Positions 1,146 through 28,143 of a DNA stretch of 64,000 bases are shown here, piece after piece. Position 1 is the first letter of the stretch. Each line of letters begins with the position of its first letter. This stretch comes from Arcobacter nitrofigilis DSM 7299 (GTDB lineage Bacteria; Campylobacterota; Campylobacteria; Campylobacterales; Arcobacteraceae). The translations under genes were made by a program, and so were the position numbers. Under the pieces are notes generated by a model. The model saw only the letters and a list, made by a program, of their open reading frames with translations, was not told the origin of the DNA and did not search any database. Location: contig NC_014166.1 of the NCBI RefSeq assembly GCF_000092245.1, forward strand, positions 1,736,001 through 1,800,000, written 5' to 3'.

Positions 1146-2621
1146 ATGTCAACGAATGAAGTTTTAGAACAAAATAATGTAAGTACTACAAATAGCTTAT
1201 TAGATGCAATTGTTGCACAAACAAAATTGACTCAAGATGATGATACATATGATGTAGTTAAATCAGGAGTAGGGGCTTTAATAGAAGAACTTATAAGTTC
1301 AAATAATAATGAAGAAAAAGTTAATAAATCAGTAATTGATAAAATGATTGCAGAAATTGATAAAAAAATATCTTCTCAAATGGATGAAATATTACATAAT
1401 AAACAATTCCAAGCATTAGAATCAAAATGGCGTGGGTTATATATGTTAGTTGAAAGAACAGATTTTAGACAAAATATTCTTATGGAATTTATTAATGTTT
1501 CGAAAGAAGACTTAATTGAAGACTTTGAAGAGAGTTTAGATATTACACAATCTGGTTTATATAAACACGTTTATTCATCAGGATATGGTCAATTTGGTGG
1601 AGAACCAGTTGGTACTATAATTGCAGATTATGAATTATCTCCATCAAATGTTGATATTAAGTTTTTAAATAAAGTTGCAGCAATTTCAGCAATGGCACAT
1701 GCTCCATTTATAGGAGCAGCTGGTCCTAAATTTTTTGGACTAAATAGCTTTGAAGGTTTACCTGATTTAAAAGATATAGAAGATGTAATGAGTTCTCCTC
1801 AGTTTGCAGCATGGAGAGGATTTAGAAAAAATGAAGATTCTAGATATGTAGGTCTTACTTTACCTAGATTTTTACTAAGAGCACCTTATGATCCAGAAGA
1901 TAATCCTATTTCAAATTTTGTTTACAAAGAAGATGTATCAAAAGACCATGAAAATTATTTATGGGGAAATACTGTTTATGCATTTGCAAGTAAATTAACT
2001 GATAGTTTTGCAAGTTTTAGATGGTGTACAAATATTATTGGTCCAAAATCAGGGGGAGAAGTAAAAGACTTACCTGTTCATACTTTTGAGAGTATGGGAG
2101 ATATTGAAATGAAAATTCCTACAGAAGTTTTAGTTTCTGATAGAAGGGAGTATGAGTTATCTGAACAAGGTTTTATTCCTTTAATTATGAGAAAAGGAAG
2201 CAATACTGCTGCTTTTTTTGCTGCAAGTTCTGCTCAAGAACCGAAGATTTTCCCAAATACTCCAGAAGGGAATGAAGCTCAATTAAATTATAAATTAGGA
2301 ACTCAATTACCATATTTATATGCAATTACAAGAATGTCTCACTATATCAAAGTTTTACAAAGAGAACATATTGGTTCGTGGAGAGAAAGGGCTGATTTAG
2401 AAAGAGAACTAAATAGATGGGCTAAACAATATGTTGCAAATCAAGAAAATCCTACTGCAGAAATTAGAAGTAAAAGACCATTTAAAGATATTGCAATTAA
2501 TGTAGAAGATGTAAGTACTGATCCAGGTTGGTATAAAGTAAGAATTTCTTTAAGACCTCATTTTAAATATATGGGTGCAAGTTTTGAATTATCTTTAGTT
2601 GGAAAGCTAGATAAAGAATAA
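1146..2621 (+). CDS. tssC: TssC, T6SS contractile sheath large subunit
   Basis: This 491-aa protein has the length and layout of TssC/VipB/IglB (EvpB family). Recognisable blocks are the LESKWRGLYMLVE segment near residue 95, the APFIGAAGPKFFGL block near 185, and the conserved C-terminal region with KRPFKDIAINVEDV and a final beta-rich stretch. It pairs with TssB in the sheath, and ClpV recycles the contracted sheath. The start has an AAGGAG site. tssE begins one base after the stop, so the two are probably translationally coupled. Confidence 0.97.
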   Translation: MSTNEVLEQNNVSTTNSLLDAIVAQTKLTQDDDTYDVVKSGVGALIEELISSNNNEEKVNKSVIDKMIAEIDKKISSQMDEILHNKQFQALESKWRGLYMLVERTDFRQNILMEFINVSKEDLIEDFEESLDITQSGLYKHVYSSGYGQFGGEPVGTIIADYELSPSNVDIKFLNKVAAISAMAHAPFIGAAGPKFFGLNSFEGLPDLKDIEDVMSSPQFAAWRGFRKNEDSRYVGLTLPRFLLRAPYDPEDNPISNFVYKEDVSKDHENYLWGNTVYAFASKLTDSFASFRWCTNIIGPKSGGEVKDLPVHTFESMGDIEMKIPTEVLVSDRREYELSEQGFIPLIMRKGSNTAAFFAASSAQEPKIFPNTPEGNEAQLNYKLGTQLPYLYAITRMSHYIKVLQREHIGSWRERADLERELNRWAKQYVANQENPTAEIRSKRPFKDIAINVEDVSTDPGWYKVRISLRPHFKYMGASFELSLVGKLDKE

Positions 2622-4809: not shown

Positions 4810-5802
4810 ATGAGAATTGATGAAATTAACTATAATATAAAACCTTCGACTTTTAAATATACTTTACCACAGGCAATAAGAATTTGTTTTGGATATTTAA
4901 AAATGATTTATAAAAATAAAAATTCTGATGATTTGTATAACAATCATATAGTTTTTAAATCAAACCACAGTTTATCTTTTCAAAGATCAGAATTATCAAA
5001 TATTGATTTTATAGAAACAAAAGAAAAAATATATGTGGAAATTACATTAAATTTTTTAGGAATATTTGGAAGTGCATCTCCTCTTCCTGTACATTACAGT
5101 GAATTAGTACTAGAAAGTTTTGATTCAGATAGAATTTTATATGATTTTTTAAACTTATTCAATCATAATTTACAAAAATTTATCTATCCTATTTGGGAAA
5201 AACATAGATATTATGTTCAATATAAAAAAGGACTTAAAGATAGATTTTCGAAATATATTTTATCTTTTTTAGGACTATATGGGCACCTTGAAAACTCATC
5301 TTCATTAAACCTAGAAAAACTAATACCATACATGGGTATTCTAATAATGAAACATAAATCAGCAGGAACATTAAAATCAATATTAAGACACTATTTATCT
5401 CATGATGAAATTGAGATTATTCAGTGTATTCCTGCAAATTATAATATACCTTCTTTTCAATACTCTTCTTTAGGACAAAAAAACATATCTTTAGGAAGTA
5501 ACTTCCTAATAGGGGAATCAATATTAAGTAAAAATATTAAATTTAGAATACTTCTCAAAAATGTAACTTCTGAAGATCTAATAAAATTTAGTATTAAAGG
5601 GGATAAGTTAACTCAAATAAGTGATTTAATATCTTTTTCTCTCAATGAACCTCTTGAACACGAAATTTGTTTGAAAATAAAAAAAGAAAATAAAGTTAAG
5701 TTTTTATTGAGTAAGAAAGAAGATAGATATATAGGTATAAATACTTGGTTAGGGATATCTGACTATGACGAAGAAATAATAATGGCACAAGAAGGAAAAT
5801 AA
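4810..5802 (+). CDS. tssG: TssG, T6SS baseplate protein (ImpH/VasB)
   Basis: This 330-aa protein has the TssG arrangement. An early FxQAIRI-type segment (TLPQAIRICFGYL) is followed by the FLGIFGSASPLPVHYSEL block, near residues 84-103, which is the strongest TssG signature. The middle is helical and the C-terminus beta-rich. TssG forms the baseplate wedge with TssF. Its stop codon shares one base with the clpV start (TAATG), which implies translational coupling. Confidence 0.93.
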   Translation: MRIDEINYNIKPSTFKYTLPQAIRICFGYLKMIYKNKNSDDLYNNHIVFKSNHSLSFQRSELSNIDFIETKEKIYVEITLNFLGIFGSASPLPVHYSELVLESFDSDRILYDFLNLFNHNLQKFIYPIWEKHRYYVQYKKGLKDRFSKYILSFLGLYGHLENSSSLNLEKLIPYMGILIMKHKSAGTLKSILRHYLSHDEIEIIQCIPANYNIPSFQYSSLGQKNISLGSNFLIGESILSKNIKFRILLKNVTSEDLIKFSIKGDKLTQISDLISFSLNEPLEHEICLKIKKENKVKFLLSKKEDRYIGINTWLGISDYDEEIIMAQEGK

Positions 5803-8336
5803 TGAAAATTGAATTAAATGAAATAATAAATGCACTAGATGTTCAAACAAAGTTTTATATAGAAAGTTCTGCACAAAGATGTATAGAAAGAAGTGGAAAT
5901 GAAATATTAATAGAAGATATTTTATATACGATGTTAGAAAAAGATAACAGTCTTTTTAATAAATTATTAGAACACTATGAAATAGATATACAAGAAATGT
6001 ACAATCTATTACAAATGAGTACAAAAATAACAAATACAGAAAGTACAAATCCTATCTTTTCTACTATGTTAGTACAATGGTTAGAAGAGGCATTTTATAC
6101 TTCTAAAATGTCATTAGAAATAAATGAAATAACAGAATCATCATTAATTTTATCTTTATTTGATAACTCTGTAAAATATTCAACTACTTCATATTTTAAA
6201 CTTATAAAAAATATAAATACCAATGAATTAAAAGAGTTAATTTTAGGATTAAATAAAAAGAAAAGAGAAAGAAAAAGCAGTCAAAGAACTGAAACAAGTG
6301 AATTAGATAAATACACAACAAACTTAACTAAACTAGCAAAAGAGGGGAAAATTGACCCTGTTTTATGTAGAGATGATGAGATAAAGCAAGCAATTGATAT
6401 TTTGCTAAGAAGAAGAAAAAATAATCCTATTTTAGTAGGAGAAGCAGGGGTTGGGAAAACTGCAGTAGTTGAAGGACTAGCTTTAAAAATTATAAATAAA
6501 GAGGTTCCTGATTATTTATATGAAGCACAAATTTTATCTTTAGATTTAGGTGCCCTACAAGCAGGTGCAAGTGTAAAAGGTGAATTTGAAAGAAGATTAC
6601 AAGCTGTGATAAGAGAAATACAATCAAGTACTCAAAATATTATACTATTTATTGATGAAGCACATACACTTATAGGTGCAGGAGGAAATGAAGGAGGGGG
6701 AGATGCTGCTAATTTATTAAAACCTGCCCTTGCAAGAGGAGAGCTAAAAACAATTGCTGCAACAACTTGGCTTGAATACAGAAAATATTTTGAGAAAGAT
6801 CCAGCATTATCAAGAAGATTTCAAAAGATAAACCTTCTTGAACCAAGCGTAGAACAAGCAATTACAATATTAAGAGGACTTTCAAAAAAATATGAAGATG
6901 TTCATAATGTCTATATAGAAGATGATGCCTTAAGATCAGCTGCAATTCTCTCTGCAAGATATATTACAGGAAGACAATTACCAGATAAAGCAATCGATGT
7001 TTTAGATACTGCTTGTGCAAATGTAAAAATAAGTAAAACAAATATACCTCATACTTTGCAAAAAATTAATACTCAAATTATAGAAAAACAAAGGGAAATT
7101 GATTTTCTAAAAAGAGATCACGAAAATGAAATAAAAGATTATCAATCAGATATTCTAAAACTTCAAGAAGATTTAAAAGAATTAGAAAGAGAGCGTGAAG
7201 TTATAACAAATTTATGGAATGAACAAAAATTATTATTAAACAAAATATACGAAACAAAAGATAAAGAAGAGTTAAGTCTTTTAAATATCAAATTAAATCA
7301 ATTGCAAAAAGAGTATTCATATATTTATAAAAATGTTACAAAAGAACAAGTAGCTGAAGTTATTGCTTCATGGACGGGAATACCTTTAGGAAATATGGTT
7401 CAAGGACAAATAAAAAATATTATGAAACTTGAAGATAATATTAAAGAGCGAATAATTGGACAAAATGAAGCAATATCTTATTTAACTACATTCCTACAAA
7501 TATCAATAGCTGGGTTAAAAAAAGAAGATGCTCCAAATGGAGTATTTTTATTAGTTGGACCAAGTGGCGTTGGCAAAACTGAAACTGCAAAAGCAATCGC
7601 TGATTTAATGTATGGTGGAGAGCGATTTATTACTACTATTAATATGACAGAATTTCAAGAAAAACATACTGTTTCTAGATTGATTGGTTCACCTCCTGGT
7701 TATGTTGGATATGGAGATGGTGGTCAATTAACAGATCCTGTTAGAGTTAAACCATATTCAGTTGTATTATTAGATGAAATCGAAAAAGCACATCCTGATA
7801 TTTTAAATCTTTTCTATCAAATATTTGATAAGGGAGTAGCAAATGATGGAGAGGGTAGAGTAATAGATTTTAAAAATACAACTATTATCATGACTTCAAA
7901 CTTAGCAACAGAAAAGATAACTGAGTTGTGTGTAAGTAAACCTGATTTGACCATGGATGCTTTAACAAAAGAAATTATACCAACTCTTTCTTCTTATTTG
8001 CAACCTGCTTTATTAGGAAGAATGAATGTAATTCCATATTTTAATTTAAAAGATGAATCTTTATTTGAAATTGCTAATTTAAAACTAAATGTAATAAAAG
8101 ATCAATTAATGAAAAAAAATATCTCACTACAAGTAGATGATAAACTTTTAAAATACATCGTTACATTAAGCAATACAGTAGATACAGGTGCAAGAAATAT
8201 TGATTTAATTATTAATATCAATATTATGCCAAAACTATCAAAATATATTTTAAATTGCATAGTTAATGATATATCTATTGATAAGTTAAGTGTGTCTATT
8301 AATTTAGACAATGACATATTAATATCTCATGATTAA
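5802..8336 (+). CDS. tssH: TssH/ClpV, AAA+ ATPase that recycles the T6SS sheath
   Basis: This 844-aa Clp/Hsp100 protein has an N-terminal domain (about residues 1-150) and two AAA+ modules. The first Walker A is GEAGVGKTAV near residue 213, with FIDEAHTLIGAGG after it. The second is GPSGVGKTE near 586, with LLDEIEKAHPD. A coiled-coil middle domain lies around residues 410-520. ClpV pulls contracted TssB/C sheaths apart. Its place between tssG and the fha/membrane genes separates it from housekeeping ClpB. The start overlaps the tssG stop by one base. Confidence 0.96.
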   Translation: MKIELNEIINALDVQTKFYIESSAQRCIERSGNEILIEDILYTMLEKDNSLFNKLLEHYEIDIQEMYNLLQMSTKITNTESTNPIFSTMLVQWLEEAFYTSKMSLEINEITESSLILSLFDNSVKYSTTSYFKLIKNINTNELKELILGLNKKKRERKSSQRTETSELDKYTTNLTKLAKEGKIDPVLCRDDEIKQAIDILLRRRKNNPILVGEAGVGKTAVVEGLALKIINKEVPDYLYEAQILSLDLGALQAGASVKGEFERRLQAVIREIQSSTQNIILFIDEAHTLIGAGGNEGGGDAANLLKPALARGELKTIAATTWLEYRKYFEKDPALSRRFQKINLLEPSVEQAITILRGLSKKYEDVHNVYIEDDALRSAAILSARYITGRQLPDKAIDVLDTACANVKISKTNIPHTLQKINTQIIEKQREIDFLKRDHENEIKDYQSDILKLQEDLKELEREREVITNLWNEQKLLLNKIYETKDKEELSLLNIKLNQLQKEYSYIYKNVTKEQVAEVIASWTGIPLGNMVQGQIKNIMKLEDNIKERIIGQNEAISYLTTFLQISIAGLKKEDAPNGVFLLVGPSGVGKTETAKAIADLMYGGERFITTINMTEFQEKHTVSRLIGSPPGYVGYGDGGQLTDPVRVKPYSVVLLDEIEKAHPDILNLFYQIFDKGVANDGEGRVIDFKNTTIIMTSNLATEKITELCVSKPDLTMDALTKEIIPTLSSYLQPALLGRMNVIPYFNLKDESLFEIANLKLNVIKDQLMKKNISLQVDDKLLKYIVTLSNTVDTGARNIDLIININIMPKLSKYILNCIVNDISIDKLSVSINLDNDILISHD

Positions 8337-8348
8337 AAAGGATACAAA

Positions 8349-8480
8349 GTGATAAAAAAAAGTTTAATTATTTTAAATATTATGATCGTTTTGACTTTAA
8401 GTGGTTGTGCTTCTTTTAAAGAAACATATAAACCCCTATATCAAGTAAAACCAGAAACAAAAACAATTGATGGATTTTGA
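8349..8480 (+). CDS. Small T6SS-locus lipoprotein, 43 aa, unknown function
   Basis: This short reading frame starts with GTG, seven bases after an AAGGA ribosome site, and fills the gap between clpV and tagH. It encodes a hydrophobic signal segment ending in the lipobox LSGC, with the lipidated cysteine at position 20. A mature peptide of only about 24 residues follows (ASFKETYKPLYQVKPETKT and four more). The next gene starts 3 bases later. It is not TssJ, which is encoded separately downstream. By position it may assist the membrane complex, but no function is known to me. Confidence 0.7.
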   Translation: MIKKSLIILNIMIVLTLSGCASFKETYKPLYQVKPETKTIDGF

Positions 8481-8483
8481 TAA

Positions 8484-9767
8484 ATGAAACTTATTTTTGA
8501 CATAATAAAAAGCGGAAGAGATATCCCAAATAAAAACAACTTTCATTTTGATATGAATGGTGGAAGTATAGGTCGTTCAAGTGAATCTGATTGGCAATTA
8601 CCAGATAGACAAAATTATATTTCAAGCGAACACATTTTAATAAAATTTATTGATGAGTCTTACTTTATTCAAGATGAAAGTACAAATGGCACATATTTAA
8701 AAGAACCTTATAGAAAACTACCAAAAAATAAGCAAATAAAAATCAATTCTAATGATATTTTTATTGTAGGTGAATATGAAATTCAAGCTAGATTTATTGA
8801 TAATGATTATTCAACAAAGGACATTTTACAATCAAACTATAGTAACTTATCATCCACTAAATCTATGGGAACAATTATTCCTGATGATTTTGAAATAATT
8901 GAAGATATGAATAGTTCATTTATTAAAGAGGATTCTAAAATAGAAATAAATGATACTCTTTTTAATCTATTTGATGAAGATAATAAACATAGCTCAGAGA
9001 TAATTTATGATTTTGAAAAAGAAGAAATTTTATTTGAGAATGAGGAAGAGGATAGTGTAACAAGAAATCCAATGCAAGAACATATTATCGTTCCATCTTT
9101 TAACAAAAAAGAAGAAGAACTAAAAGAAAGTGAAATTGAAGAAATAGATCTTGAAGAGACTATTCAATCTAAAAAAAGCAATAAGAAAGATTCTAATATT
9201 AGTTCAGAAGATAAAAGTTTAAAATATTTAGAAGAAAAACTAGGAATTAAGCTCTCTTCTTTAAGTGATATTGAACAAAAAAGAATATTACACGAAATAG
9301 CTAATATTGTAACATATTCATTAGATGGTTTAAAAAATTCATTAAAATTAGTTGATAAAGTAAAAAAAGATTTAAACATAGAAGATTCCTTTTCACATCA
9401 AAACGTTAATAACCCCGTTTTATTAGGACAATTTGCACTAAATACAGATAATAAAATAAGTTTATCAGATGCTGTGAAAAAATCATTTAAACAACTTGAT
9501 AATCATAATATAGCATTGCAGATGTCAAGTAAAAACCTTGTAAATATTACACTAAATAAATTTAATCCAAAAAGTTTAGAGCATCATTTTAACAAGCAAG
9601 GTTATATAAATTCAATCTTGCCTAAAAAAGCTCAAATGTGGGATTCTTACGAAAAGATGTTCGATAAATTAACTAGTGATTCTAATCTTGGTATAGATTT
9701 AATTTCTGAAGATTTTACAAAAGAATACAACAAAATTGTTTATACAATTAAATTAACATCAATTTAA
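8484..9767 (+). CDS. tagH: TagH/Fha, FHA-domain T6SS regulator
   Basis: This 427-aa protein has an N-terminal forkhead-associated domain (about residues 20-100) with the phosphothreonine-binding motifs GRSSESDWQLPD, SSEHILI and STNGTYL. A long acidic linker (about 110-240) follows. The C-terminal domain, about 250-427, resembles the TagH C-terminal region. In Pseudomonas the equivalent Fha1 is phosphorylated by PpkA and switches on secretion. The kinase and phosphatase genes at the end of this operon suggest the same control here. Confidence 0.9.
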   Translation: MKLIFDIIKSGRDIPNKNNFHFDMNGGSIGRSSESDWQLPDRQNYISSEHILIKFIDESYFIQDESTNGTYLKEPYRKLPKNKQIKINSNDIFIVGEYEIQARFIDNDYSTKDILQSNYSNLSSTKSMGTIIPDDFEIIEDMNSSFIKEDSKIEINDTLFNLFDEDNKHSSEIIYDFEKEEILFENEEEDSVTRNPMQEHIIVPSFNKKEEELKESEIEEIDLEETIQSKKSNKKDSNISSEDKSLKYLEEKLGIKLSSLSDIEQKRILHEIANIVTYSLDGLKNSLKLVDKVKKDLNIEDSFSHQNVNNPVLLGQFALNTDNKISLSDAVKKSFKQLDNHNIALQMSSKNLVNITLNKFNPKSLEHHFNKQGYINSILPKKAQMWDSYEKMFDKLTSDSNLGIDLISEDFTKEYNKIVYTIKLTSI

Positions 9768-9777
9768 AAGGAAAAAA

Positions 9778-10227
9778 ATGAATATTAAATTTAGTATATT
9801 TATGTTAATAAGTTTTATTATACTTATTACAGGCTGTGCTTCTAAACCTACTCATTTAGAGTTAGTAATAAAGTCTGCAAAAGATTTAAATCCCGATATT
9901 GATACTGTTTCTTCTCCACTTATGTTAACTTTTTACGAACTAGAAAGTGCTGAGAAGTTTTTAAAATATGATTTTTGGAGAATAGTAGATGATTCTGGTA
10001 AAAATCTTGAACCTGAATTGATTTCACAATCAAAACAAATTATTATTCCTTCTCAAGAACAAACATACAATATTGTTTTTGATGATAAAGCAAAATTTTT
10101 AGGAATTATTGCAAAGTTTAGAAATATTGATGGAAATAATTGGAGACAAGTAATCAATTTAGAAAAAGATTCTTACAATTTTTCCGAGTTTGAAATAAAA
10201 AAATTTACCATAAAGAGAGTTGAATAA
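9778..10227 (+). CDS. tssJ: TssJ, outer-membrane lipoprotein of the T6SS membrane complex
   Basis: The 149-aa product begins with a lipoprotein signal peptide with lipobox ITGC; the lipidated cysteine is residue 20. The mature part is a small beta-rich domain, as in TssJ (VasD/Lip). TssJ anchors TssM to the outer membrane. An AAAAGGAAAA ribosome site precedes the ATG. The stop shares a base with the tssK start. Position between tagH and tssK fits the standard order tssJ-tssK-tssL-tssM. Confidence 0.9.
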   Translation: MNIKFSIFMLISFIILITGCASKPTHLELVIKSAKDLNPDIDTVSSPLMLTFYELESAEKFLKYDFWRIVDDSGKNLEPELISQSKQIIIPSQEQTYNIVFDDKAKFLGIIAKFRNIDGNNWRQVINLEKDSYNFSEFEIKKFTIKRVE

Positions 10228-11575: not shown

Positions 11576-12442
11576 ATGAATAATAAAACAATATTAATAT
11601 CAAATAATCAAAATAGAAATTTTTCTAATAATTTGACATCAAATCAAAGAAAAACTATAAATAGGGATAATATAAATAATTATCAAAGTAGATTTAAAAG
11701 ATCAAAACAATCAAAATTTAAAAATTATGAAATAAGTTTTAATCCATTTATCACAGCTGCTATGCCAATCTTCAAATTAGTTTTTGAGATTAAAGAAGAT
11801 ATTGAAGATGCAAGTATAAATGATATAAGAGAAGAGTTTATAGACAAAGTAAATACTTATACAGAAACTGCTTCTTCTCTTGATATAGATGAAAATGAGA
11901 TATTAGTAATACGTTATGTATTATGTTCATTTGTTGATGAATTTATGAATTCACATTTTTTAAGCAAAGATTACAATTGGTCAAATAATAGTTTGCTAAG
12001 TATATTTCATAATGAGACTTATGGAGGAGAAAATTTCTTTCATTTACTTAATAGATTTTTAAAAACTCCTGCAAAATATATCCATATCCTTGAGTTATTA
12101 TATTCTTGTCTTGCTTTAGGTTTTGAAGGGAAATATAGAGTAATAAGTAGAGGAGAAGTTGAATTAAATAATATCAAAGATAGTTTATTTAAACAAATAA
12201 AAATCGTACAAGGAAGAGAACCATTCCCTTTTTATAGCAAACAAATACCTGCACAAGAGAGTTATAAATTATTTAATAAAATTCCTTATTCAACACTATT
12301 TTTTAGTGTGTCATTATTGTTATTAATCATTTACTCAGGATTAACGTTTAGTTTATCTAATCAAAATAATGATTTTATAGATTTGATTAATAATAAAACA
12401 ACAATAGAAATAGATGATTTATATACAGGAGATAAGAAATGA
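11576..12442 (+). CDS. tssL: TssL, DotU-like inner-membrane T6SS protein
   Basis: The 288-aa product has a DotU-like cytoplasmic domain (about residues 55-230) with the pattern FVDEFMNS and a C-terminal single membrane helix at about residues 238-262. The first 45 residues are rich in asparagine and basic residues and look disordered. No peptidoglycan-binding OmpA-like domain follows the helix, so this is the short TssL form. It forms the membrane complex with TssM and TssJ. The stop overlaps the tssM start in ATGA. Confidence 0.92.
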   Translation: MNNKTILISNNQNRNFSNNLTSNQRKTINRDNINNYQSRFKRSKQSKFKNYEISFNPFITAAMPIFKLVFEIKEDIEDASINDIREEFIDKVNTYTETASSLDIDENEILVIRYVLCSFVDEFMNSHFLSKDYNWSNNSLLSIFHNETYGGENFFHLLNRFLKTPAKYIHILELLYSCLALGFEGKYRVISRGEVELNNIKDSLFKQIKIVQGREPFPFYSKQIPAQESYKLFNKIPYSTLFFSVSLLLLIIYSGLTFSLSNQNNDFIDLINNKTTIEIDDLYTGDKK

Positions 12443-15400
12443 AAAAACCTTTTTACAAAAATATTATATTTTGGATAATATTTGTTTCATTTTTTATTTC
12501 TTTGTTAATTATATTTCTATTCCCTTATTTATTTGATTCTTTTAAAGAGTTAAATTTTAGATTATTACTCTCTTTTAGTTTATTTTTTGGCACAATAATA
12601 GCAATATTACTTTATATTGTATTTAAAAAAGAAGAAACCCAAGAAATACTAAAAGAAAGAGCTGAACAAAAAGAGTTAGAAAATGAATACAAAAAAGTCA
12701 TTTCAGAAAAAGTCAAAGATTTAAAAACAAAATTTAAAGATGCAGTAAGAATAATCAAAAAATCCTCTTTATATAAAAATAGAAGCAAAATTAATTATGA
12801 ATTACCTTGGTACCTTGTAATAGGAGATAAAGCTGAAGGGAAATCAACATTATTAGAATCTTCAGGATTAAACTTTCCTTTAAATGTAAACTTTGAAAAA
12901 AGAATAGCAATAGAAGAGACAACAACAAAAGCTTTCCAATGGTACTTTTCTGAGAAATCTGTTTTTGTAGATATTCCAGGAAATTATATTGAACTAAATG
13001 AAAACCCAGAAGATAAAATTATTTGGAAAGAATTTTTAAAACTATTTACAAAAAAAAGATGGAGAAGACCAATCAATGGAATCATCTTAACAATTAGTGT
13101 TGATAGGCTATTAAAAAATGAAAAAGAGTTAGAAAAGTATGCAAAAGATTTAAGAGATAGATTTGATGAATTATCTGTATCATTCATGTCTAGTATTCCA
13201 ATTTATTTGATGATAACAAAGTTAGATAAGATAGATGGATTTAGTGAATATTTTATTAATTTATCAGAAAATGAAAAAGATGAAATATTAGGTGTTACCT
13301 TTGATGAAAATAAAAAAAATATTGATTCAAGTATTTCAAAAAGTGAACTTGAAAGCCTACTAAAAAAATTAAATAGTTCAGTATTAGAAAAGATGCATTT
13401 TGAATGGGAAAAAGAGAATAGGTCTAAAATATTTTTATTTACAGAATATTTATCTGATTTATTTGATAAAACAAACCTTTTTGTTGATATATGTTTTTCA
13501 CAAACAAGATATAGAAAACCACTACTTTTAAGAGGTATTTATTACACAAGTACTCCTTGTAGCGGTAATCACCAACAGTTAGTTTCAATTGATAATTTAG
13601 AATATTCAAGAGATAAAAAAGGGCTATTCATAAGAAAAGTCTTAAGTGATATCATTTTCCCTGAATCAGAAACAATAAAGATGGATGATAATTATCGAAA
13701 AAAAGTAAAAAAGAACCAAACTATTGCTTTAATTATTTCATTTGCATTTATAGCTCTTGTTAGTACTTTTTATATTAATGATTTTATTAATCAAAATAAT
13801 AGCTTAAGAAAAATGGAAAAGACCTTTGAAGTATACAAAGTCGCCAAAAATAAGTTTTTGCCTTCAGATAAAGTTGATGATATTTTAATTTTATTGAATA
13901 ATATAGAAAGAATTAGGAAATATAATGATATTCAAGATAAAAGTTTTTGGAATCTATTATTTTATAAATCAGAAGAAAGACATAATGAACTAACAAAAAT
14001 TTATTACAATGACTTGTTAACTTTTTTATTACCAAGAATAGCTACAGTTATGGAACAAAATATTTCAAAAGATTTAAATGATTTTGATTCGACTTGGGAT
14101 AATACAAAAGCATATGTAATGCTTGAAAATAAACCACACAGAGATATCAAGTTTTTATCTAAATATATGGCAGAAGAGTGGAGTAAAAGATACCCTTACA
14201 ATACTAAAGTACAAAGTGAATTAAACTATCACTTCACAAAATTATTAAATTTTGGGTTTAAGCCTTATTCACTAAATGAAGATATATTAAAAACAGCAAG
14301 AGCTAGACTTACAAAATTAGGATCTGAAAGATTAACATATAAAGAATTAATATTAAAATCAAAAGATATGAGACTAGAATCTTTTAAATTCTCTTCAGTT
14401 ATGTTAAATAATATAAATGAGTTCAAAAGAAATGACTATGAAATACCTGGTTTTTATACAAAGAATGGATTTAATATTTTGATGAAAGATGGTATGTCTT
14501 TAACAAAAAATATATTATTAAATAATTGGGTTATAGGCAAAAAAACAAACCTTAGTCCTATTGAGATTAGTAAACATTACCAAAAAGTTTTAAGTTTGTA
14601 TTTCTTAGATTATAAAGAATACTGGCTAAATGCACTTAGTAATCTTGCTATTCCTATTAAGACGAATACATCAAGTTTAAATGCCCAATTAGCTGTGTTT
14701 TCATCTTCAGACTCACCAGTATTATCTGTATTAAAAGCTTTAAAAGAAAATACTAATATTTATACTCCAAGTGAAATTATAAAAATGAAATCGAGTAAAA
14801 GCAATGTTTCTAGCCAAATTATAAATGCAACTGTTAGTAGTCAAATTGGAAAAACTATTGCAAAAGAAGCATTAAATGATATTGAAAATGAGGTAGATAA
14901 TAGAAGTATAGAAAGTATGAGAAACTTCTTTAAGGATTATAATACTTTAATAAATAAAGAAAATTCACCTGATGCTATTTTAGGAAATTCAATTAATAAA
15001 TTAAATACTATTTATCAATTGATGTCATCAATTTACAGTAGTATAAACCCAGATTTTGATGCTTATAAAATTATAAATGATAGAATAAATGGAAATACTA
15101 CATCTTTTACAAATGACTTAAACAAACTACCTTTATATGTGAAAAATTGGTATTTACAATTACTTCGTTCAAATTGGGATAATATTTTAAGATATGGTAA
15201 AAATTACATTGAAAAAAGATTTAAAGAAGATGTATACTCTTTCTATAAAACTAACTTAATAAATAAATATCCAATAGATAGAAAAAGTTCTACTTATGTG
15301 AGATTAGATGATTTTAGTGAATTCTTTAAACCAAAAGGAATTCTTGATTCATTTTATAATGATTATATTTCAAATTTGGTTTCTATTAATTCTCAATTCA

Positions 15401-15906
15401 ATAGTTATTCTCCTAAAAACTTAGATGGTAGTATCATGAATTTTAATAAAAATTTCATGATTGGGTTAATGAAATCACTTAAAATAAGAAATCTGTTTTT
15501 TACAAACTCTGGTATTCTTAAAATAGAAGGTAATATCAAACCTTACGTTTTAGCTTCAAATTTAGCAACTATGGACTTCTTTTATGATGATGATTCTATT
15601 ATTTATGAACATGGACCAATAAAAACTACTAAAATAATTTGGCCACCAAAATCATCAAATTATATTGTGAAGTTTGATTTATTTGATTTATCAAATAATT
15701 CTGTTGTTGAACACTATTTAGATAATGAATGGGCTTTATTTAAAATAATAGATACCTTTAGAATTTCAAGAAATCTAAATAATTCAATAATATTAAAATA
15801 TTCAAATAAAAAATTTACAGGTTCATATTATTTAAGTGGAGATTTAAGTAATATATTTGGTACAAGTAATTTATTGTCTGAGTTTAACTTAAGTGAAAAA
15901 CTATAA
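12439..15906 (+). CDS. tssM: TssM, IcmF-like inner-membrane T6SS protein
   Basis: This 1155-aa protein has two N-terminal membrane helices (about residues 7-30 and 37-61), a cytoplasmic domain with a Walker A motif GDKAEGKST near residue 130, a third helix at about 425-448 and a large periplasmic region. This is the full TssM architecture. The periplasmic part spans the envelope and contacts TssJ. The intact Walker A suggests nucleotide binding, though many TssM proteins work without it. It overlaps tssL by four bases and the phosphatase gene by one. Confidence 0.96.
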   Translation: MKKPFYKNIIFWIIFVSFFISLLIIFLFPYLFDSFKELNFRLLLSFSLFFGTIIAILLYIVFKKEETQEILKERAEQKELENEYKKVISEKVKDLKTKFKDAVRIIKKSSLYKNRSKINYELPWYLVIGDKAEGKSTLLESSGLNFPLNVNFEKRIAIEETTTKAFQWYFSEKSVFVDIPGNYIELNENPEDKIIWKEFLKLFTKKRWRRPINGIILTISVDRLLKNEKELEKYAKDLRDRFDELSVSFMSSIPIYLMITKLDKIDGFSEYFINLSENEKDEILGVTFDENKKNIDSSISKSELESLLKKLNSSVLEKMHFEWEKENRSKIFLFTEYLSDLFDKTNLFVDICFSQTRYRKPLLLRGIYYTSTPCSGNHQQLVSIDNLEYSRDKKGLFIRKVLSDIIFPESETIKMDDNYRKKVKKNQTIALIISFAFIALVSTFYINDFINQNNSLRKMEKTFEVYKVAKNKFLPSDKVDDILILLNNIERIRKYNDIQDKSFWNLLFYKSEERHNELTKIYYNDLLTFLLPRIATVMEQNISKDLNDFDSTWDNTKAYVMLENKPHRDIKFLSKYMAEEWSKRYPYNTKVQSELNYHFTKLLNFGFKPYSLNEDILKTARARLTKLGSERLTYKELILKSKDMRLESFKFSSVMLNNINEFKRNDYEIPGFYTKNGFNILMKDGMSLTKNILLNNWVIGKKTNLSPIEISKHYQKVLSLYFLDYKEYWLNALSNLAIPIKTNTSSLNAQLAVFSSSDSPVLSVLKALKENTNIYTPSEIIKMKSSKSNVSSQIINATVSSQIGKTIAKEALNDIENEVDNRSIESMRNFFKDYNTLINKENSPDAILGNSINKLNTIYQLMSSIYSSINPDFDAYKIINDRINGNTTSFTNDLNKLPLYVKNWYLQLLRSNWDNILRYGKNYIEKRFKEDVYSFYKTNLINKYPIDRKSSTYVRLDDFSEFFKPKGILDSFYNDYISNLVSINSQFNSYSPKNLDGSIMNFNKNFMIGLMKSLKIRNLFFTNSGILKIEGNIKPYVLASNLATMDFFYDDDSIIYEHGPIKTTKIIWPPKSSNYIVKFDLFDLSNNSVVEHYLDNEWALFKIIDTFRISRNLNNSIILKYSNKKFTGSYYLSGDLSNIFGTSNLLSEFNLSEKL

Positions 15907-18153: not shown

Positions 18154-20078
18154 ATGTCAAAAGAGATAATAAGAAATAATGTAGAAGAGATAGAAGAGGG
18201 ACTAAAGAGTGGGGTAAACTTAAAAGAGCTTAGACGTGAAGTTAAACAAGATATAAATGCAAGAATAAAACTATTAAACTATAAACCAAATGCTACAGTT
18301 GGCATTATAGATGGAAGTTTTAATGTTTATAAACTTTTAGGTTCTAGTAGTGTTAATACTCCTTACTCTTTTACTATTACTTTTGTTAGTGATGATTTTA
18401 TTAATATTGAAGATATTGTTGATACTGATATTGAGTTAAATATTAAAGATAATGTTAATCCTTTAATTAAAAAAACAATATATGGTAAAATATTTAAAGC
18501 TAGTGAAGATTCTATTGTTGCAAAGAAACATCTTTATATTATAGAAGTTGTATCTCCTATTTATTATCTTAGTTTAAATAATAAATATGAGATATTTCAC
18601 AATAAAAAAACATCTGATATTATTGTTGAGATAATAAATAGATATAACCAATTATTAAATTTAAAAATAGATATTAAATTAGATTTAATTAAAGCTCCAA
18701 CTAAAGAGTATACAACTCAATATAATCAAAATGATTTAGAGTTTATTCAAATGCTTTGTGAGAAGGAGGGTTATAGTTTAATTCTTGATTATTCTTCTAA
18801 TGATCCATATACTATAACTCTTTGTGAATTAAATGAACATGCTATTGTAAATACTTATTCTTCTACTTGTAGTTTTAATCATAGTAAAGAGTTTAAATCT
18901 ACAAACTATGTACAAGACTTTTATGATAAAGATAAACCAAGTTTACAATATAAAATCCAAACAGGTTCTAGTATAACTTCTAGTGTTGAAGACAATGAAA
19001 GTACTAGACAGTTAAGAACTGATATAAAAAGAGAAAAGTTTAGAGATAAGTTAAATGTATTAGACGAGTCTTATTATAAAGACTTAAATAGATACAGTAA
19101 AATAGACTCTCAAAGGGAATATGTAAAATCAAATATTATAAAAGGAACTTCTGAGGAGTTAAATATAAATGACTCATTATGTATAACATTAGAAGATGAA
19201 AAAGCAAATAAGCATATTGATTCTATTATCTTAGAAGTAAAATATGAAGGCTTCTTTCCAAATGCTTTAGATGAGTATAAACAAAACATAGATGAGAGTA
19301 AAAAACATCAACTTCAATATGAAGTAGAATTTACAGCCATTCCAAAAGATATAATATATAAACCACCATATAAAATAAAAAAGCCTAAAATAAACTCAAT
19401 ACAAACAGCAATAGTATCTAATGGCAATTCTAATACAAAAGATTATACTAATACAATAGATGTGGATGAACAAGGTAGAATAAAAGTATTGTTTCACTTT
19501 GAGACTAATCAAATAACTTCTTGTTATTTAAGATTATCAAATATGTTTAGTGGTGATGGATATGGTTCTCAATTTCTTCCAAGAGTTAACTCTGAAGTAA
19601 TAGTAAGCTTTATAAATGGTGATCCAGATTTACCTATTATAATAGGAACTTTGCATAATGGTGAAAATAAAAATCCATATAATCTTCCAAAAGAGAAAAC
19701 AAAATCTTTTATAAAAACCCATTCTATTCCACAATATGAAGACAAAATAGGGTACAACGAAATAGCCTTTGAAGATAAAAGAGGAGATGAGAATTTATCT
19801 TTAAGAGCACAAAAGGATATGAATACCCTTGTACTTAATAATGAGTTCAAACATATAGAGAATAATTCAAAGACTATTATTAATAATGACAAAGAAGAGA
19901 CTGTAGAAGCTAATTCTATTTTAACTATAAATAAAGACTATACCCAAAATATAAAAGAAAATCAGATAAATACTGTAGAAAAAGAAAAACTTACTACTGT
20001 TAAAGAAGATTATGAAATTCACGCACTTAAAGATTTGAACACTATTGTTAAGAATGACATTAAGACTATTGTGGAAAA
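18154..20078 (+). repeat. Long direct repeat, copy 1 (5' part of vgrG1)
   Basis: This segment matches 24774-26698 at a fixed offset of 6620 bases. By reading the two copies side by side I see no difference from the start codon to 19839, including at silent sites. A handful of mismatches follow up to 20078, and then there is abrupt divergence. The repeat starts at the ATG; the upstream flanks differ. The pattern suggests recent duplication or gene conversion of the spike core. Confidence 0.95.
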
Positions 20079-21060
20079 AGACATGATAACAAGAGTAAAA
20101 GGAACTTCAACAGAGTATATAGAAAAAGATGTAAAGAAAAAATACTTAGAAAATCTATTTACTCAAGTAGGAAAAGACTATAGACTTGATGTTCAAAATA
20201 ACTATCATCTTAAAAGTAATAATATAAAATTAAATGCAGATATTATAGAACTAATAGCAGAAACAGGAGTTACTTTAAGATGTGGGGGAAATGTATTAAC
20301 AGTAAATCAAAGTGGAATACACCTAAAATCAGGAAATATCGATACAACTTCAAGTAATGGTGGAGTAAATGCACAAGATGTTGCAAAACCACTTATTAAA
20401 AAACCATTGTATGAAAAGATAAGAGTAATCTCTTTAGATGCTACAGTTACAAAACAAAATACTATAGACGAAGCATTGACTTTCACAGCAACAGTAGAAA
20501 AATATGAAAATGATGCATGGAGTCAAACAACTGATTTAAACGAAACCCAATTAGCTCAACTGCAATGGTACTTCATAAAAAACAATGATGAAAGTGATAC
20601 TGACATCATAACAGATAATCCAACAAATGATAATATCACAATAAATGGTCTTACTCTTACAGTAAATGTTCAAGAAGACAATATATATAAATGGGGACAT
20701 GCGCATTGTTATGTTGTAAATAGTGAAGAAGAAGGTTATGCAATAAGTGAACTTGAAAGATATCTTGAAGTGGAAGATATCAAAGGTTCTTACCCAAAAA
20801 AAGAAGAGGGTAAATGTAAAGCTATATTAAATGTAGAAGAACCAAGAGATGAAGAGTTAGCACAAATAAGATGGACAGTAGAAGGAAGAGAAGAATCAAA
20901 ATATAATGGACAAGTGATAATCAATCATAACCTTAAAGATGAAAAAGCATATGAAATAAACTTCCAAGCATATATTGAAGGCAAAAAAGAAGATGCTGCC
21001 AATGGAAGACTTTATTATGATGAAAATAAAAATCAAGAAGTAAAAAGCAATACAAAATAA
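18154..21060 (+). CDS. vgrG: VgrG1, T6SS spike protein with extended C-terminal domain
   Basis: This 968-aa spike protein has the gp27-like N-terminal region (about residues 35-400), the gp5 OB-fold (about 430-510, with VDEQGRIKVLFHF and VIVSFINGDPDLPIIIGTLHNG) and a repetitive beta-helix region (about 540-720). An extra C-terminal domain of about 240 residues follows; it looks beta-sandwich-like and has no enzyme motif I recognise. This tail may act as the docking site for the downstream Tle1-type effector. The first 1.9 kb is nearly identical to vgrG2. A GAGA-rich weak ribosome site precedes the ATG. Confidence 0.95.
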   Translation: MSKEIIRNNVEEIEEGLKSGVNLKELRREVKQDINARIKLLNYKPNATVGIIDGSFNVYKLLGSSSVNTPYSFTITFVSDDFINIEDIVDTDIELNIKDNVNPLIKKTIYGKIFKASEDSIVAKKHLYIIEVVSPIYYLSLNNKYEIFHNKKTSDIIVEIINRYNQLLNLKIDIKLDLIKAPTKEYTTQYNQNDLEFIQMLCEKEGYSLILDYSSNDPYTITLCELNEHAIVNTYSSTCSFNHSKEFKSTNYVQDFYDKDKPSLQYKIQTGSSITSSVEDNESTRQLRTDIKREKFRDKLNVLDESYYKDLNRYSKIDSQREYVKSNIIKGTSEELNINDSLCITLEDEKANKHIDSIILEVKYEGFFPNALDEYKQNIDESKKHQLQYEVEFTAIPKDIIYKPPYKIKKPKINSIQTAIVSNGNSNTKDYTNTIDVDEQGRIKVLFHFETNQITSCYLRLSNMFSGDGYGSQFLPRVNSEVIVSFINGDPDLPIIIGTLHNGENKNPYNLPKEKTKSFIKTHSIPQYEDKIGYNEIAFEDKRGDENLSLRAQKDMNTLVLNNEFKHIENNSKTIINNDKEETVEANSILTINKDYTQNIKENQINTVEKEKLTTVKEDYEIHALKDLNTIVKNDIKTIVEKDMITRVKGTSTEYIEKDVKKKYLENLFTQVGKDYRLDVQNNYHLKSNNIKLNADIIELIAETGVTLRCGGNVLTVNQSGIHLKSGNIDTTSSNGGVNAQDVAKPLIKKPLYEKIRVISLDATVTKQNTIDEALTFTATVEKYENDAWSQTTDLNETQLAQLQWYFIKNNDESDTDIITDNPTNDNITINGLTLTVNVQEDNIYKWGHAHCYVVNSEEEGYAISELERYLEVEDIKGSYPKKEEGKCKAILNVEEPRDEELAQIRWTVEGREESKYNGQVIINHNLKDEKAYEINFQAYIEGKKEDAANGRLYYDENKNQEVKSNTK

Positions 21061-24773: not shown

Positions 24774-26698
24774 ATGTCAAAAGAGATAATAAGAAATAAT
24801 GTAGAAGAGATAGAAGAGGGACTAAAGAGTGGGGTAAACTTAAAAGAGCTTAGACGTGAAGTTAAACAAGATATAAATGCAAGAATAAAACTATTAAACT
24901 ATAAACCAAATGCTACAGTTGGCATTATAGATGGAAGTTTTAATGTTTATAAACTTTTAGGTTCTAGTAGTGTTAATACTCCTTACTCTTTTACTATTAC
25001 TTTTGTTAGTGATGATTTTATTAATATTGAAGATATTGTTGATACTGATATTGAGTTAAATATTAAAGATAATGTTAATCCTTTAATTAAAAAAACAATA
25101 TATGGTAAAATATTTAAAGCTAGTGAAGATTCTATTGTTGCAAAGAAACATCTTTATATTATAGAAGTTGTATCTCCTATTTATTATCTTAGTTTAAATA
25201 ATAAATATGAGATATTTCACAATAAAAAAACATCTGATATTATTGTTGAGATAATAAATAGATATAACCAATTATTAAATTTAAAAATAGATATTAAATT
25301 AGATTTAATTAAAGCTCCAACTAAAGAGTATACAACTCAATATAATCAAAATGATTTAGAGTTTATTCAAATGCTTTGTGAGAAGGAGGGTTATAGTTTA
25401 ATTCTTGATTATTCTTCTAATGATCCATATACTATAACTCTTTGTGAATTAAATGAACATGCTATTGTAAATACTTATTCTTCTACTTGTAGTTTTAATC
25501 ATAGTAAAGAGTTTAAATCTACAAACTATGTACAAGACTTTTATGATAAAGATAAACCAAGTTTACAATATAAAATCCAAACAGGTTCTAGTATAACTTC
25601 TAGTGTTGAAGACAATGAAAGTACTAGACAGTTAAGAACTGATATAAAAAGAGAAAAGTTTAGAGATAAGTTAAATGTATTAGACGAGTCTTATTATAAA
25701 GACTTAAATAGATACAGTAAAATAGACTCTCAAAGGGAATATGTAAAATCAAATATTATAAAAGGAACTTCTGAGGAGTTAAATATAAATGACTCATTAT
25801 GTATAACATTAGAAGATGAAAAAGCAAATAAGCATATTGATTCTATTATCTTAGAAGTAAAATATGAAGGCTTCTTTCCAAATGCTTTAGATGAGTATAA
25901 ACAAAACATAGATGAGAGTAAAAAACATCAACTTCAATATGAAGTAGAATTTACAGCCATTCCAAAAGATATAATATATAAACCACCATATAAAATAAAA
26001 AAGCCTAAAATAAACTCAATACAAACAGCAATAGTATCTAATGGCAATTCTAATACAAAAGATTATACTAATACAATAGATGTGGATGAACAAGGTAGAA
26101 TAAAAGTATTGTTTCACTTTGAGACTAATCAAATAACTTCTTGTTATTTAAGATTATCAAATATGTTTAGTGGTGATGGATATGGTTCTCAATTTCTTCC
26201 AAGAGTTAACTCTGAAGTAATAGTAAGCTTTATAAATGGTGATCCAGATTTACCTATTATAATAGGAACTTTGCATAATGGTGAAAATAAAAATCCATAT
26301 AATCTTCCAAAAGAGAAAACAAAATCTTTTATAAAAACCCATTCTATTCCACAATATGAAGACAAAATAGGGTACAACGAAATAGCCTTTGAAGATAAAA
26401 GAGGAGATGAGAATTTATCTTTAAGAGCACAAAAGGATATGAATACCCTTGTACTTAATGATGAGTTTAAACATATAGAGAATAATTCAAAGACTATTAT
26501 TAATAATGACAAAGAAGAGACAGTAGAAGCAAACTCTATTTTAACAGTAAATAAAGACTATACACAAAATATAAAAGAAAATCAGATAAATACTGTAGAA
26601 AAAGAAAAACTTACTACTGTTAAAGAAGATTATGAAATTCACGCACTTAAAGATTTGAACACTATTGTTAAGAATGACATTAAGACTATTGTGGAAAA
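24774..26698 (+). repeat. Long direct repeat, copy 2 (5' part of vgrG2)
   Basis: This is the second copy of the 1.9-kb repeat also present at 18154-20078. Differences appear only after 26459 and are sparse until 26698. Such long direct repeats can recombine and delete or expand the 6.6 kb between them, including the phospholipase cassette. Confidence 0.95.
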
Positions 26699-27308
26699 TG
26701 ATGTAACAACTTCGATTAAAAATATACTTTTAAAATATGTAGAAAAAGATGCAAGTGATAAATACCTAGAAAGTCTTTTTATTCAAGTAGCAAATGAACT
26801 AGGAGTAAATATAAAAGATAGCTTCCATCTTGATACAACAAACGCCTTATATGAAGGTTCAAATGAGATAACCTTAGAAGCAAAAACAGGAATAAGTCTA
26901 AGATGTGGAGGAAATATAGCCACTGTAGATAGTTCAGGAATACATTTTAATACTCCTAATTATGTTAAGAATTCAGGGAATGATGGGGTTAATGGGGTGG
27001 AAGTACAATATACAGGAGATATAATAAATTTAAGAGCTGATGATACAAATAGAGTATTTCTTAGTGAAGTTATAGAAGATGATTATATTTTAAGAGCAGA
27101 TACAAGTCTAAAAGAAGGAACAAGTGTTGAAGCAACTTGTTTTATATTAGGTGAAGAAGAAAAAATTTTAGCACAAAAAAGTAAAACAATAAATGTTAAA
27201 AACTCACAACTTGAAGCTGTTTTTGATTTGGATGAAATAAAAAATAAAAACCAATTAGATATCAATGATATAGAAAAGTACAAGGGAAAGATGCAATGGG
27301 AAGCTTAG
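24774..27308 (+). CDS. vgrG: VgrG2, T6SS spike protein
   Basis: This 844-aa protein is identical to VgrG1 through the gp27-like and OB-fold regions and the first part of the beta-helix, up to about residue 640. It then has its own beta-helix end and a shorter C-terminal tail of about 120 residues. The unique tail probably selects the Tae4-type cargo encoded next. The last 13 bases overlap the start of the amidase gene. It begins 9 bases after the phospholipase stop. Confidence 0.95.
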   Translation: MSKEIIRNNVEEIEEGLKSGVNLKELRREVKQDINARIKLLNYKPNATVGIIDGSFNVYKLLGSSSVNTPYSFTITFVSDDFINIEDIVDTDIELNIKDNVNPLIKKTIYGKIFKASEDSIVAKKHLYIIEVVSPIYYLSLNNKYEIFHNKKTSDIIVEIINRYNQLLNLKIDIKLDLIKAPTKEYTTQYNQNDLEFIQMLCEKEGYSLILDYSSNDPYTITLCELNEHAIVNTYSSTCSFNHSKEFKSTNYVQDFYDKDKPSLQYKIQTGSSITSSVEDNESTRQLRTDIKREKFRDKLNVLDESYYKDLNRYSKIDSQREYVKSNIIKGTSEELNINDSLCITLEDEKANKHIDSIILEVKYEGFFPNALDEYKQNIDESKKHQLQYEVEFTAIPKDIIYKPPYKIKKPKINSIQTAIVSNGNSNTKDYTNTIDVDEQGRIKVLFHFETNQITSCYLRLSNMFSGDGYGSQFLPRVNSEVIVSFINGDPDLPIIIGTLHNGENKNPYNLPKEKTKSFIKTHSIPQYEDKIGYNEIAFEDKRGDENLSLRAQKDMNTLVLNDEFKHIENNSKTIINNDKEETVEANSILTVNKDYTQNIKENQINTVEKEKLTTVKEDYEIHALKDLNTIVKNDIKTIVENDVTTSIKNILLKYVEKDASDKYLESLFIQVANELGVNIKDSFHLDTTNALYEGSNEITLEAKTGISLRCGGNIATVDSSGIHFNTPNYVKNSGNDGVNGVEVQYTGDIINLRADDTNRVFLSEVIEDDYILRADTSLKEGTSVEATCFILGEEEKILAQKSKTINVKNSQLEAVFDLDEIKNKNQLDINDIEKYKGKMQWEA

Positions 27309-27886
27309 AGATTAAGACAAAACAAAAGATAATAAGATTTAGTGAATTATGGAATAATTATCCAAAAGATACAATTCAACATCCAGGGAAAGATTCAAAT
27401 AACACTTGGCAAGAAGATTTAATGGATGATCATTGTGCAATTAATGTAAGTGAGGCACTACTTAATTCTGGAGTATCCTTAAAAAAAACTAAAGCAGTTA
27501 AATGTTGGGGAGAATGTCCAAATAAAAAGTATCCCAGTCAACATATTATTAGAGCAACCGAATTAGCAAAATGGTTAGAACAAAAGACACAATTTAAAGG
27601 ATGTGCTAAACCTAAATATTATACAGGGCAAACATTTAAAAAGTTTTTAGACAATAAAAAAGGTATTATATATTTTGAGGATTACTGGATAGATCATGAT
27701 GTTAGAAGTGGTGATCATATTGATTTATGGGATGATAATGAGTTGGCAAGTGGTGGATATTTAGGAAGTTTAATAAGAAACTCTATGCCAAACCTTGTAG
27801 AGGCAGTAACAGGTTTTTTAGGTGATAGTACTAGAATAACAAGTCTTGAACGATCAAAAAGAGTAATCTTTTGGGAGATAGATTAG
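27296..27886 (+). CDS. tae4: Tae4-type T6SS peptidoglycan amidase effector
   Basis: This 196-aa protein matches the Tae4 amidase family. The catalytic cysteine lies in DDHCAINVSEAL (residue 47) and the histidine in SGDHIDLW (residue 141), with nearby aspartates. The HIIRATELAKWLE segment is also characteristic. Tae4 enzymes cut the peptide stems of peptidoglycan in the target periplasm. No signal peptide is present, as expected for cargo carried by the needle. The start overlaps vgrG2, and the stop overlaps the next gene's GTG by one base, so spike, toxin and putative immunity are coupled. Confidence 0.88.
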   Translation: MGSLEIKTKQKIIRFSELWNNYPKDTIQHPGKDSNNTWQEDLMDDHCAINVSEALLNSGVSLKKTKAVKCWGECPNKKYPSQHIIRATELAKWLEQKTQFKGCAKPKYYTGQTFKKFLDNKKGIIYFEDYWIDHDVRSGDHIDLWDDNELASGGYLGSLIRNSMPNLVEAVTGFLGDSTRITSLERSKRVIFWEID

Positions 27887-28143
27887 TGTTAGTAAAAAAT
27901 AATATTTTAAAATTTTTATTTATATTCTTAATATCTTTTATCTTAGAATTTATAATGTTATATTTATTTGGCGAAGATTTATTTAAAATCTATATAACCA
28001 TATTTTTTGGTGAATTATCTTATGAAAGATTAGAAAGAGAGAATCAGTCTATGAGCTTTCTAATATATTTCATTCCAATCATGTTTATTATTGTTATTTT
28101 ATCACTTCATTATTTATTTAAAAAGTTTGTCAAACAGAAATAA
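27886..28143 (+). CDS. Small two-helix membrane protein, candidate immunity to the Tae4-type effector
   Basis: I place the start at the GTG at 27886, eight bases after GGGAG and sharing one base with the amidase stop; an in-frame TTG at 27871 has no such site. The 85-aa product has two membrane helices (about residues 8-29 and 56-78) and a charged loop with GEDLFKIY and ERLERENQS. Known Tai4 immunity proteins are soluble and periplasmic, so this is not a recognisable Tai4. Position directly after the toxin suggests immunity, but this is inference. Confidence 0.6.
   Translation: MLVKNNILKFLFIFLISFILEFIMLYLFGEDLFKIYITIFFGELSYERLERENQSMSFLIYFIPIMFIIVILSLHYLFKKFVKQK

Follow-up and report, generated by a model that had tools for sequence, protein, structure and literature searches.

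The described gene that stands closest to the locus analysed here is orfX of the H2-type type VI secretion systems (T6SS) of Pseudomonas. It is reported as PA1664 in P. aeruginosa, located between sfa2 and fha2 (PMC9602442, PMC9846239), and as PSPTO_5423 in P. syringae DC3000 (PMC7283901), and both genes stand with neighboring T6SS genes in published expression tables (PMC10413270, PMC7146990). In P. syringae DC3000, an in-frame deletion of PSPTO_5423 is reported to impair secretion of Hcp2, and three other mutants, not including the orfX mutant, are named in the accessible text of that report as being without cellular Hcp2 (PMC7283901). This phenotype may act through the adjacent fha/tagH gene, the in-frame design of the deletion being the only counterpoint. 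In its accessible parts, the literature describes orfX as a gene of unknown function, though its deletion affects secretion. The portion of the literature that was covered, mostly without subscription papers, held no description of OrfX as a lipoprotein and none of a small T6SS lipoprotein in Campylobacterota.

Lipoproteins of secretion systems and of the cell envelope offer further comparisons for the small lipoprotein (sLP) that is the subject of this report. TssJ is a lipoprotein of the outer membrane and is encoded in the same operon as sLP, but it comprises 149 aa with a domain of its own and is the product of a separate gene (Table 1). To our knowledge, depictions of the TssJ-TssM complex usually show no such lipopeptide, and we know of no T6SS model with a VirB7-like lipopeptide subunit. 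VirB7 is a small protein that docks in the form of an extended peptide. It is described as a lipoprotein that is required for the stability of the trans-envelope type IV secretion complex at the outer membrane and that is joined to VirB9 by a disulfide (PMC3213119). Its likeness to sLP is an analogy between small lipoproteins and in presumed mode of action only; VirB7 belongs to another machine and has the VirB9 disulfide, whereas the only Cys of sLP would be lipidated. TagV of Serratia marcescens, described as an accessory outer-membrane T6SS lipoprotein needed for full activity, is like sLP a lipoprotein of a T6SS cluster beyond TssJ; however, TagV is a 166-aa protein for which an SH3b domain is predicted, and it is encoded immediately upstream of tssJ (PMC7614798), whereas the window protein, with 43 aa, has no room for an SH3b domain and matched no Pfam family at E <= 0.1. 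Braun-type lipoprotein (Lpp) differs in its C-terminal Lys for cross-linking, which is missing in the window protein (its last residue is Phe).

Position and features of the small lipoprotein gene

The window, which is the whole 64,000-nt stretch of Arcobacter nitrofigilis DSM 7299 DNA that was analysed, contains a run of T6SS genes for which NCBIfam and Pfam models give the order TssA (its end), TssB, C, E, F, G, and H, TagH, TssJ, K, L, and M, a PP2C phosphatase, and a Ser/Thr kinase. The run ends with a VgrG gene (NCBIfam/Pfam), preceded by a gene that we take, by its position and size, to be hcp. At 147 nt, the gap between clpV/tssH and tagH is the widest in the run from tssA to vgrG; the remaining gaps are at most 17 nt as far as ppkA, 48 nt between ppkA and hcp, and 122 nt between hcp and vgrG. 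A preliminary description had assigned to this gap a 43-aa frame with a GTG start, a ribosome site, an LSGC lipobox, and a mature peptide of about 24 residues, and each of these particulars was borne out (Table 1). The frame reads MIKKSLIILNIMIVLTLSGCASFKETYKPLYQVKPETKTIDGF, with GTG as its first codon, and 3 nt separate its stop from the start of tagH. Its predicted signal part consists of a basic n-region followed by a hydrophobic stretch and LSGC, and predicted cleavage ahead of Cys20 would leave a mature sLP of exactly 24 residues.

Table 1. Coordinates of the small lipoprotein gene, its signals, its neighbors, and other features named in the text.
Feature	Sequence	Positions	Strand	Remarks
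clpV/tssH	Window	5802..8336	+	Upstream neighbor; TIGR03345 (NCBIfam)
Shine-Dalgarno AAGGA	Window	8338..8342	+	6 nt 5' of GTG; from sequence
Small lipoprotein gene (sLP, OrfX-type)	Window	8349..8480	+	43 aa, GTG start, TGA stop; clpV-tagH slot in 24/24 distinct Campylobacterota loci
Lipobox LSGC	Window	8397..8408	+	Residues 17-20; Cys20 predicted to be lipidated, +2 = Ala
Mature-peptide core Y-K-P-L-Y-Q-V-K-P	Window	8427..8453	+	Alignment A3 of 22 sequences
tagH (FHA protein)	Window	8484..9767	+	Downstream neighbor; TIGR03354, PF20232
tssJ (core-complex outer-membrane lipoprotein)	Window	9778..10227	+	TIGR03352, PF12790; possible sLP partner
tssM (membrane-complex pillar)	Window	12439..15906	+	TIGR03348; possible sLP partner
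First VgrG-like gene	Window	18154-21060
Second VgrG-like gene	Window	24774-27308
Tae4-type amidase effector gene	Window	27296-27886		PF14113, E 1e-30
Hydrophobic frame	Window	27886-28143		85 aa
Further lipoprotein-like frame	Window	30459-30857		132 aa, ITGC
OrfX, WP_071556059.1	L130	12358-12498		46 aa; public annotation 'type VI secretion protein'; 17 nt before tagH
tagH	L130	12516-13712		Early in-frame stop; unannotated
Lipoprotein-like frame	L052 (genome G093)	1501-1623		41 aa, lipobox SGC, E 1.1e-5

The features of a lipoprotein signal (a short basic n-region, a hydrophobic h-region, and a lipobox ending in Cys) were recognized by eye in all 24 sLP sequences identified below. The Pfam model LPAM_1 scored below its cut-off in one of three sLP sequences scanned and was absent from the other two. 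Assignment to a known family was rejected, as the NCBIfam matches, none better than E 0.023, were weak and fell far below their cut-offs. A single-sequence search at E <= 10 recovered one copy of sLP in its own genome.

Conservation in Campylobacterota and matches elsewhere

Every examined locus with a window-type tagH encodes a conserved small lipoprotein frame that is under purifying selection. A first search of 60 genomes, that of A. nitrofigilis included, identified sLP in eight genomes at E <= 0.0013, and all eight matches lie between clpV and tagH. A profile built from these eight sequences and run over 104 genomes of the family returned 18 strong matches (E <= 1.4e-9) and a weaker one in genome G068 (E 2.5e-5), which was retained because of its position beside tagH. 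Window-type TagH is encoded in 19 of the 104 family genomes, and sLP lies directly upstream in the same 19. A second family is represented by three genomes with TssK in a 397-genome sample of the phylum, and sLP occupies the same slot of the same operon in all three. Scanning of genome contigs yielded 12 stretches that fit the pattern, seven of which were confirmed, all from Campylobacterota (Malaciobacter halophilus, Arcobacter sp. CECT 8985, a Sulfuricurvum MAG, a Helicobacteraceae MAG, and three others); five of the seven had already been counted and two were new. This gives 24 distinct Campylobacterota loci (19 + 3 + 2), in each of which sLP is flanked by clpV upstream and tagH downstream. 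In each of the 24 the frame is open and has its lipobox, and the stops or frameshifts that the preliminary description had named as evidence against the gene did not appear in these relatives.

The lipobox ends in Cys and the mature length is 22-25 residues in all 24 sequences, and none has Asp at +2. Of the 22 loci whose upstream DNA was covered, 20 have an ATG start codon and two a GTG, and a purine-rich Shine-Dalgarno sequence is visible by eye in every one. In alignment A3 (22 sequences), Cys20 and Pro35 are invariant and Y27, K28, P29, L30, and Y31 are each conserved in at least 90% of sequences, with the core loosened in G463 (YTPMNQVKP) and G003 (YKLLYEVQP). Pooled over seven pairs of relatives, pN/pS is 0.21 for the mature part versus 0.50 for the signal part. 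Over 13 single pairs, dN/dS ranges from 0.04 to 0.52; the loosest pairs are G070-G073 (0.46) and G100-G097 (0.52), and the values for G000-G001 (0.38) and G032-G118 (0.37) both come from few changes. Collectively, we regard sLP as almost certainly a real gene and very probably a component of the T6SS. A strictly conserved T6SS gene can thus hide in a 147-nt gap.

Searches at permissive thresholds returned many further matches, with the short query matching in 37 of the 60 genomes at E <= 1 and the profile in 99 of the 104 genomes at E <= 0.1. Among the matches listed, those beyond the 19 were nearly all to the signal part (approximately positions 1-30) of longer open reading frames, and they were left out of the tally of sLP genes. 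Six of the further matches outscore that of G068 (E 4.8e-6 to 2.1e-5); five lie inside open reading frames of 186-353 aa and the sixth is in genome G093. The G093 frame is lipoprotein-like, is without the YKPLY core, and is encoded in a genome without a match to window-type tagH; it may be unrelated to sLP or a distant relative. No copy of sLP was found in viral contigs, and no credible copy was found in plasmids with the window protein as the query.

T6SS loci of other Campylobacterota were also screened. TssK (PF05936) was detected in 72 of the 397 phylum genomes, 71 of them above the cut-off, and these genomes divide into 11 from the window's family, three from the second family with sLP, and 58 from families f10 and f13, which are taken to be Campylobacter- and Helicobacter-like. 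The 27 f10 and f13 loci that were examined, out of the 58, differ from the window's locus in gene order and sequence. No counterpart of sLP was identified in these 27 loci, where profile matches at E <= 1 comprised the signal part of longer proteins and a few short chance frames. A scan of gaps for small lipobox frames, which covered the same 27 loci together with 12 Pseudomonadota plasmid loci, returned three short frames, of which none is lipoprotein-like beside a tagH. Of the 12 plasmid loci, 11 had a detected tagH, as did six of the 27 stretches, some of them truncated at a contig end; because it was detected in only six, an equivalent gene in f10 and f13 may lie outside the stretches that were fetched. 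In a control, the gap scan recovered 16 of 19 true loci and missed L084, L120, and L130, and therefore some real genes can escape it; the scan left out L131, L132, L134, L135, and L147, stretches in which no tagH was seen. Two loci, L098 and L102 (genomes G200 and G433), have a TssK on a very long separate branch and a ClpV gene that is only 42% identical, and they represent a further T6SS lineage within Campylobacterota.

Relation to OrfX of Pseudomonas

A plasmid of P. frederiksbergensis carries an H2-type cluster (L130) in the order tssA-B-C-E-F-G-H, a sigma-54 regulator gene, a 46-aa coding sequence, tagH, and tssJ-K-L-M. Like sLP, OrfX occupies the slot directly upstream of fha/tagH, and the two operons share the order tssA-B-C-E-F-G-clpV-(sfa)-x-tagH-J-K-L-M; the sigma-54 activator gene lies between clpV and the small gene in L130 but not in the Campylobacterota loci. 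The two proteins are of similar size (46 versus 43 aa, with mature parts of 25 versus 24 residues) and both have a lipobox (GGC in L130) and a T-Y-[KR]-P-L core (TYRPL in L130 versus TYKPL in the window), a comparison that on the OrfX side comprises one Pseudomonas sequence from a cluster with an in-frame stop in tagH. Outside the core, in contrast, the sequences hardly match. A Y[KR]PL motif is expected by chance in approximately 4e-4 of peptides, for a motif that was picked after the match was seen.

Phylogenetic reconstruction of TssK places L130 with the sLP-carrying Campylobacterota loci. In a tree of 59 rows, 18 Campylobacterota carriers of sLP and L130 stand alone on one side of a branch with support of 100/99; the tree is rooted for drawing only and comprises one H2-type row and many plasmid rows with an odd letter make-up, some on long branches. 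L130 is also at the top of the best 30 of 227 plasmid records that match the window TssK, with 304 bits versus 270 for the next record listed. Comparison of the peptides themselves gave more limited signals. In shuffle tests, 140 of 20,000 shuffles (HMM) and 13 of 2,000 (BLOSUM sums) scored as high, which gives modest support. The Pseudomonas peptide was absent from the matches of profile A2 at E <= 1 and had no Pfam match, the other result being one weak match to YgdI/YgdR. Its own searches of plasmids gave two weak matches, one among metabolic genes and the other on an unannotated record. By sequence alone, a relation between the sLP and OrfX peptides is no more than suggestive.

Taking together the slot, the size, the lipobox, the core motif, and the TssK tree, we consider sLP likely to be an ortholog of OrfX. 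What the preliminary description presented as a tiny unannotated lipoprotein is accordingly upheld as a real and conserved gene of the T6SS operon but, given the match to orfX, is probably not of an unnoticed kind. Through this match, orfX would gain a likely chemical identity as an outer-membrane lipopeptide and a conserved core motif, and its reach would extend to a second phylum, the Campylobacterota.

As a separate observation, the early stop in the tagH of L130, together with the lack of an annotation for this gene, suggests that the L130 cluster may be inactive.

Proposed role and alternative explanations

We propose that sLP would be exported by Sec, lipidated at Cys20, and moved to the outer membrane. 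Sorting of lipoproteins by an Asp at +2 is a rule known from E. coli, and the outer-membrane destination is predicted because sLP has no Asp at this position. The 24-residue peptide that would be left in the periplasm is presumably too short to fold alone. As a part of the T6SS that is expected to be exported and lipidated and to be unable to fold by itself, sLP would most likely dock on something. Because it reaches across the periplasm as far as the outer membrane, and because VirB7 offers a precedent, the TssJ-TssM complex is a natural partner. The periplasmic portion of TssJ and/or TssM would receive the Y-K-P-L-Y...P core as an extended strand, and the docked peptide would help to insert or stabilize the membrane complex at the outer membrane, as VirB7 does for VirB9. 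Loss of sLP would leave the complex unstable or in the wrong place, and secretion of the tube protein (Hcp) would fall.

The whole reading, namely that sLP is the Campylobacterota OrfX and an outer-membrane lipopeptide that helps to assemble or stabilize TssJ-TssM in a VirB7-like manner, is one that we hold to be somewhat probable. For the specific step of binding to TssJ or TssM, we put the chances slightly below even; the suggestion in the preliminary description that sLP may be an accessory to the TssJ-TssM complex is thus a plausible one. Correlations of pairwise distances between sLP and ten T6SS proteins were positive for all ten (r 0.58-0.90, 45-91 pairs) and did not discriminate among them. 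The broader proposal that the whole branch of H2-type and Campylobacterota ClpV-type T6SS has one more obligatory component of the membrane complex, a minimal 22-25-residue lipopeptide threaded onto TssJ/TssM at the outer membrane in the manner of VirB7, is put forward tentatively, as a possibility that falls short of an even chance. If these T6SS do need the lipopeptide, the outer-membrane anchoring step would become testable with a 24-residue peptide.

The main alternative is that the lipopeptide tethers the machine to peptidoglycan, either by binding or by an Lpp-like cross-link through a C-terminal Lys. Of the 24 sLPs, 14 end in Lys, as does the Pseudomonas peptide, and peptidoglycan binding is described, in the accessible text of one report, as common among Tag proteins and is proposed there for TagV (PMC7614798). 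However, a Lys at the C-terminus is not a conserved feature, which defeats the Lpp-like version: the window sLP and its nearest relative end in Phe, and Gln, Val, Arg, Asn, or Glu is the last residue of some others. Neither Pfam nor NCBIfam returned a match of sLP to a peptidoglycan-binding family, and conservation sits in the core rather than in the tail; we therefore regard a tether as unlikely. It is also conceivable that translation of sLP sets the level of tagH while the peptide itself has no role, as the sLP stop lies close to the tagH start (about a dozen nt away at most) in all 22 loci covered, five of which show an ATGA overlap. Yet the mature peptide, with its lower pN/pS than the signal part, is under selection at the amino-acid level, and the lipobox is kept in all sequences and Cys20 and Pro35 in all 22 that were aligned, down to an overall identity of 28-33%, although two sequences have a loosened core. 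These features would be dispensable in a pure leader, and their conservation counts against this explanation, which we judge improbable.

Immunity and lysis functions are common among small lipoproteins, and sLP could be such a lipopeptide carried in the operon. One relative matches NF045617, the NCBIfam model of a putative T6SS immunity lipoprotein, although very weakly (E 0.075, 13 bits versus a cut-off of 43). Against this, sLP lies among core genes and not beside an effector, is found as a single copy, and is present where tagH is present, which together make an immunity or lysis function very improbable. A chance frame without a product might be suspected from the short length and GTG start, but none of 20,000 random 147-nt sequences with the dinucleotide statistics of the window contained an open reading frame of at least 38 aa with a Shine-Dalgarno sequence and a lipobox. 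With this simulation and the conservation of the frame in 24 of 24 loci, we rejected the chance frame and leave it only a negligible probability.

Other features were observed further along the window. The two VgrG-like genes are almost identical in their N-terminal parts and different at their C-terminal ends, and between them are encoded a repeat protein, which from its appearance we take to be Sel1-like, and a protein of 862 aa that no NCBIfam model matched. The Tae4-type amidase effector gene shares 13 nt with the end of the second vgrG, and the hydrophobic frame that follows the effector gene may be the corresponding immunity gene or may have a different identity. The further lipoprotein-like frame lies downstream of the T6SS region.
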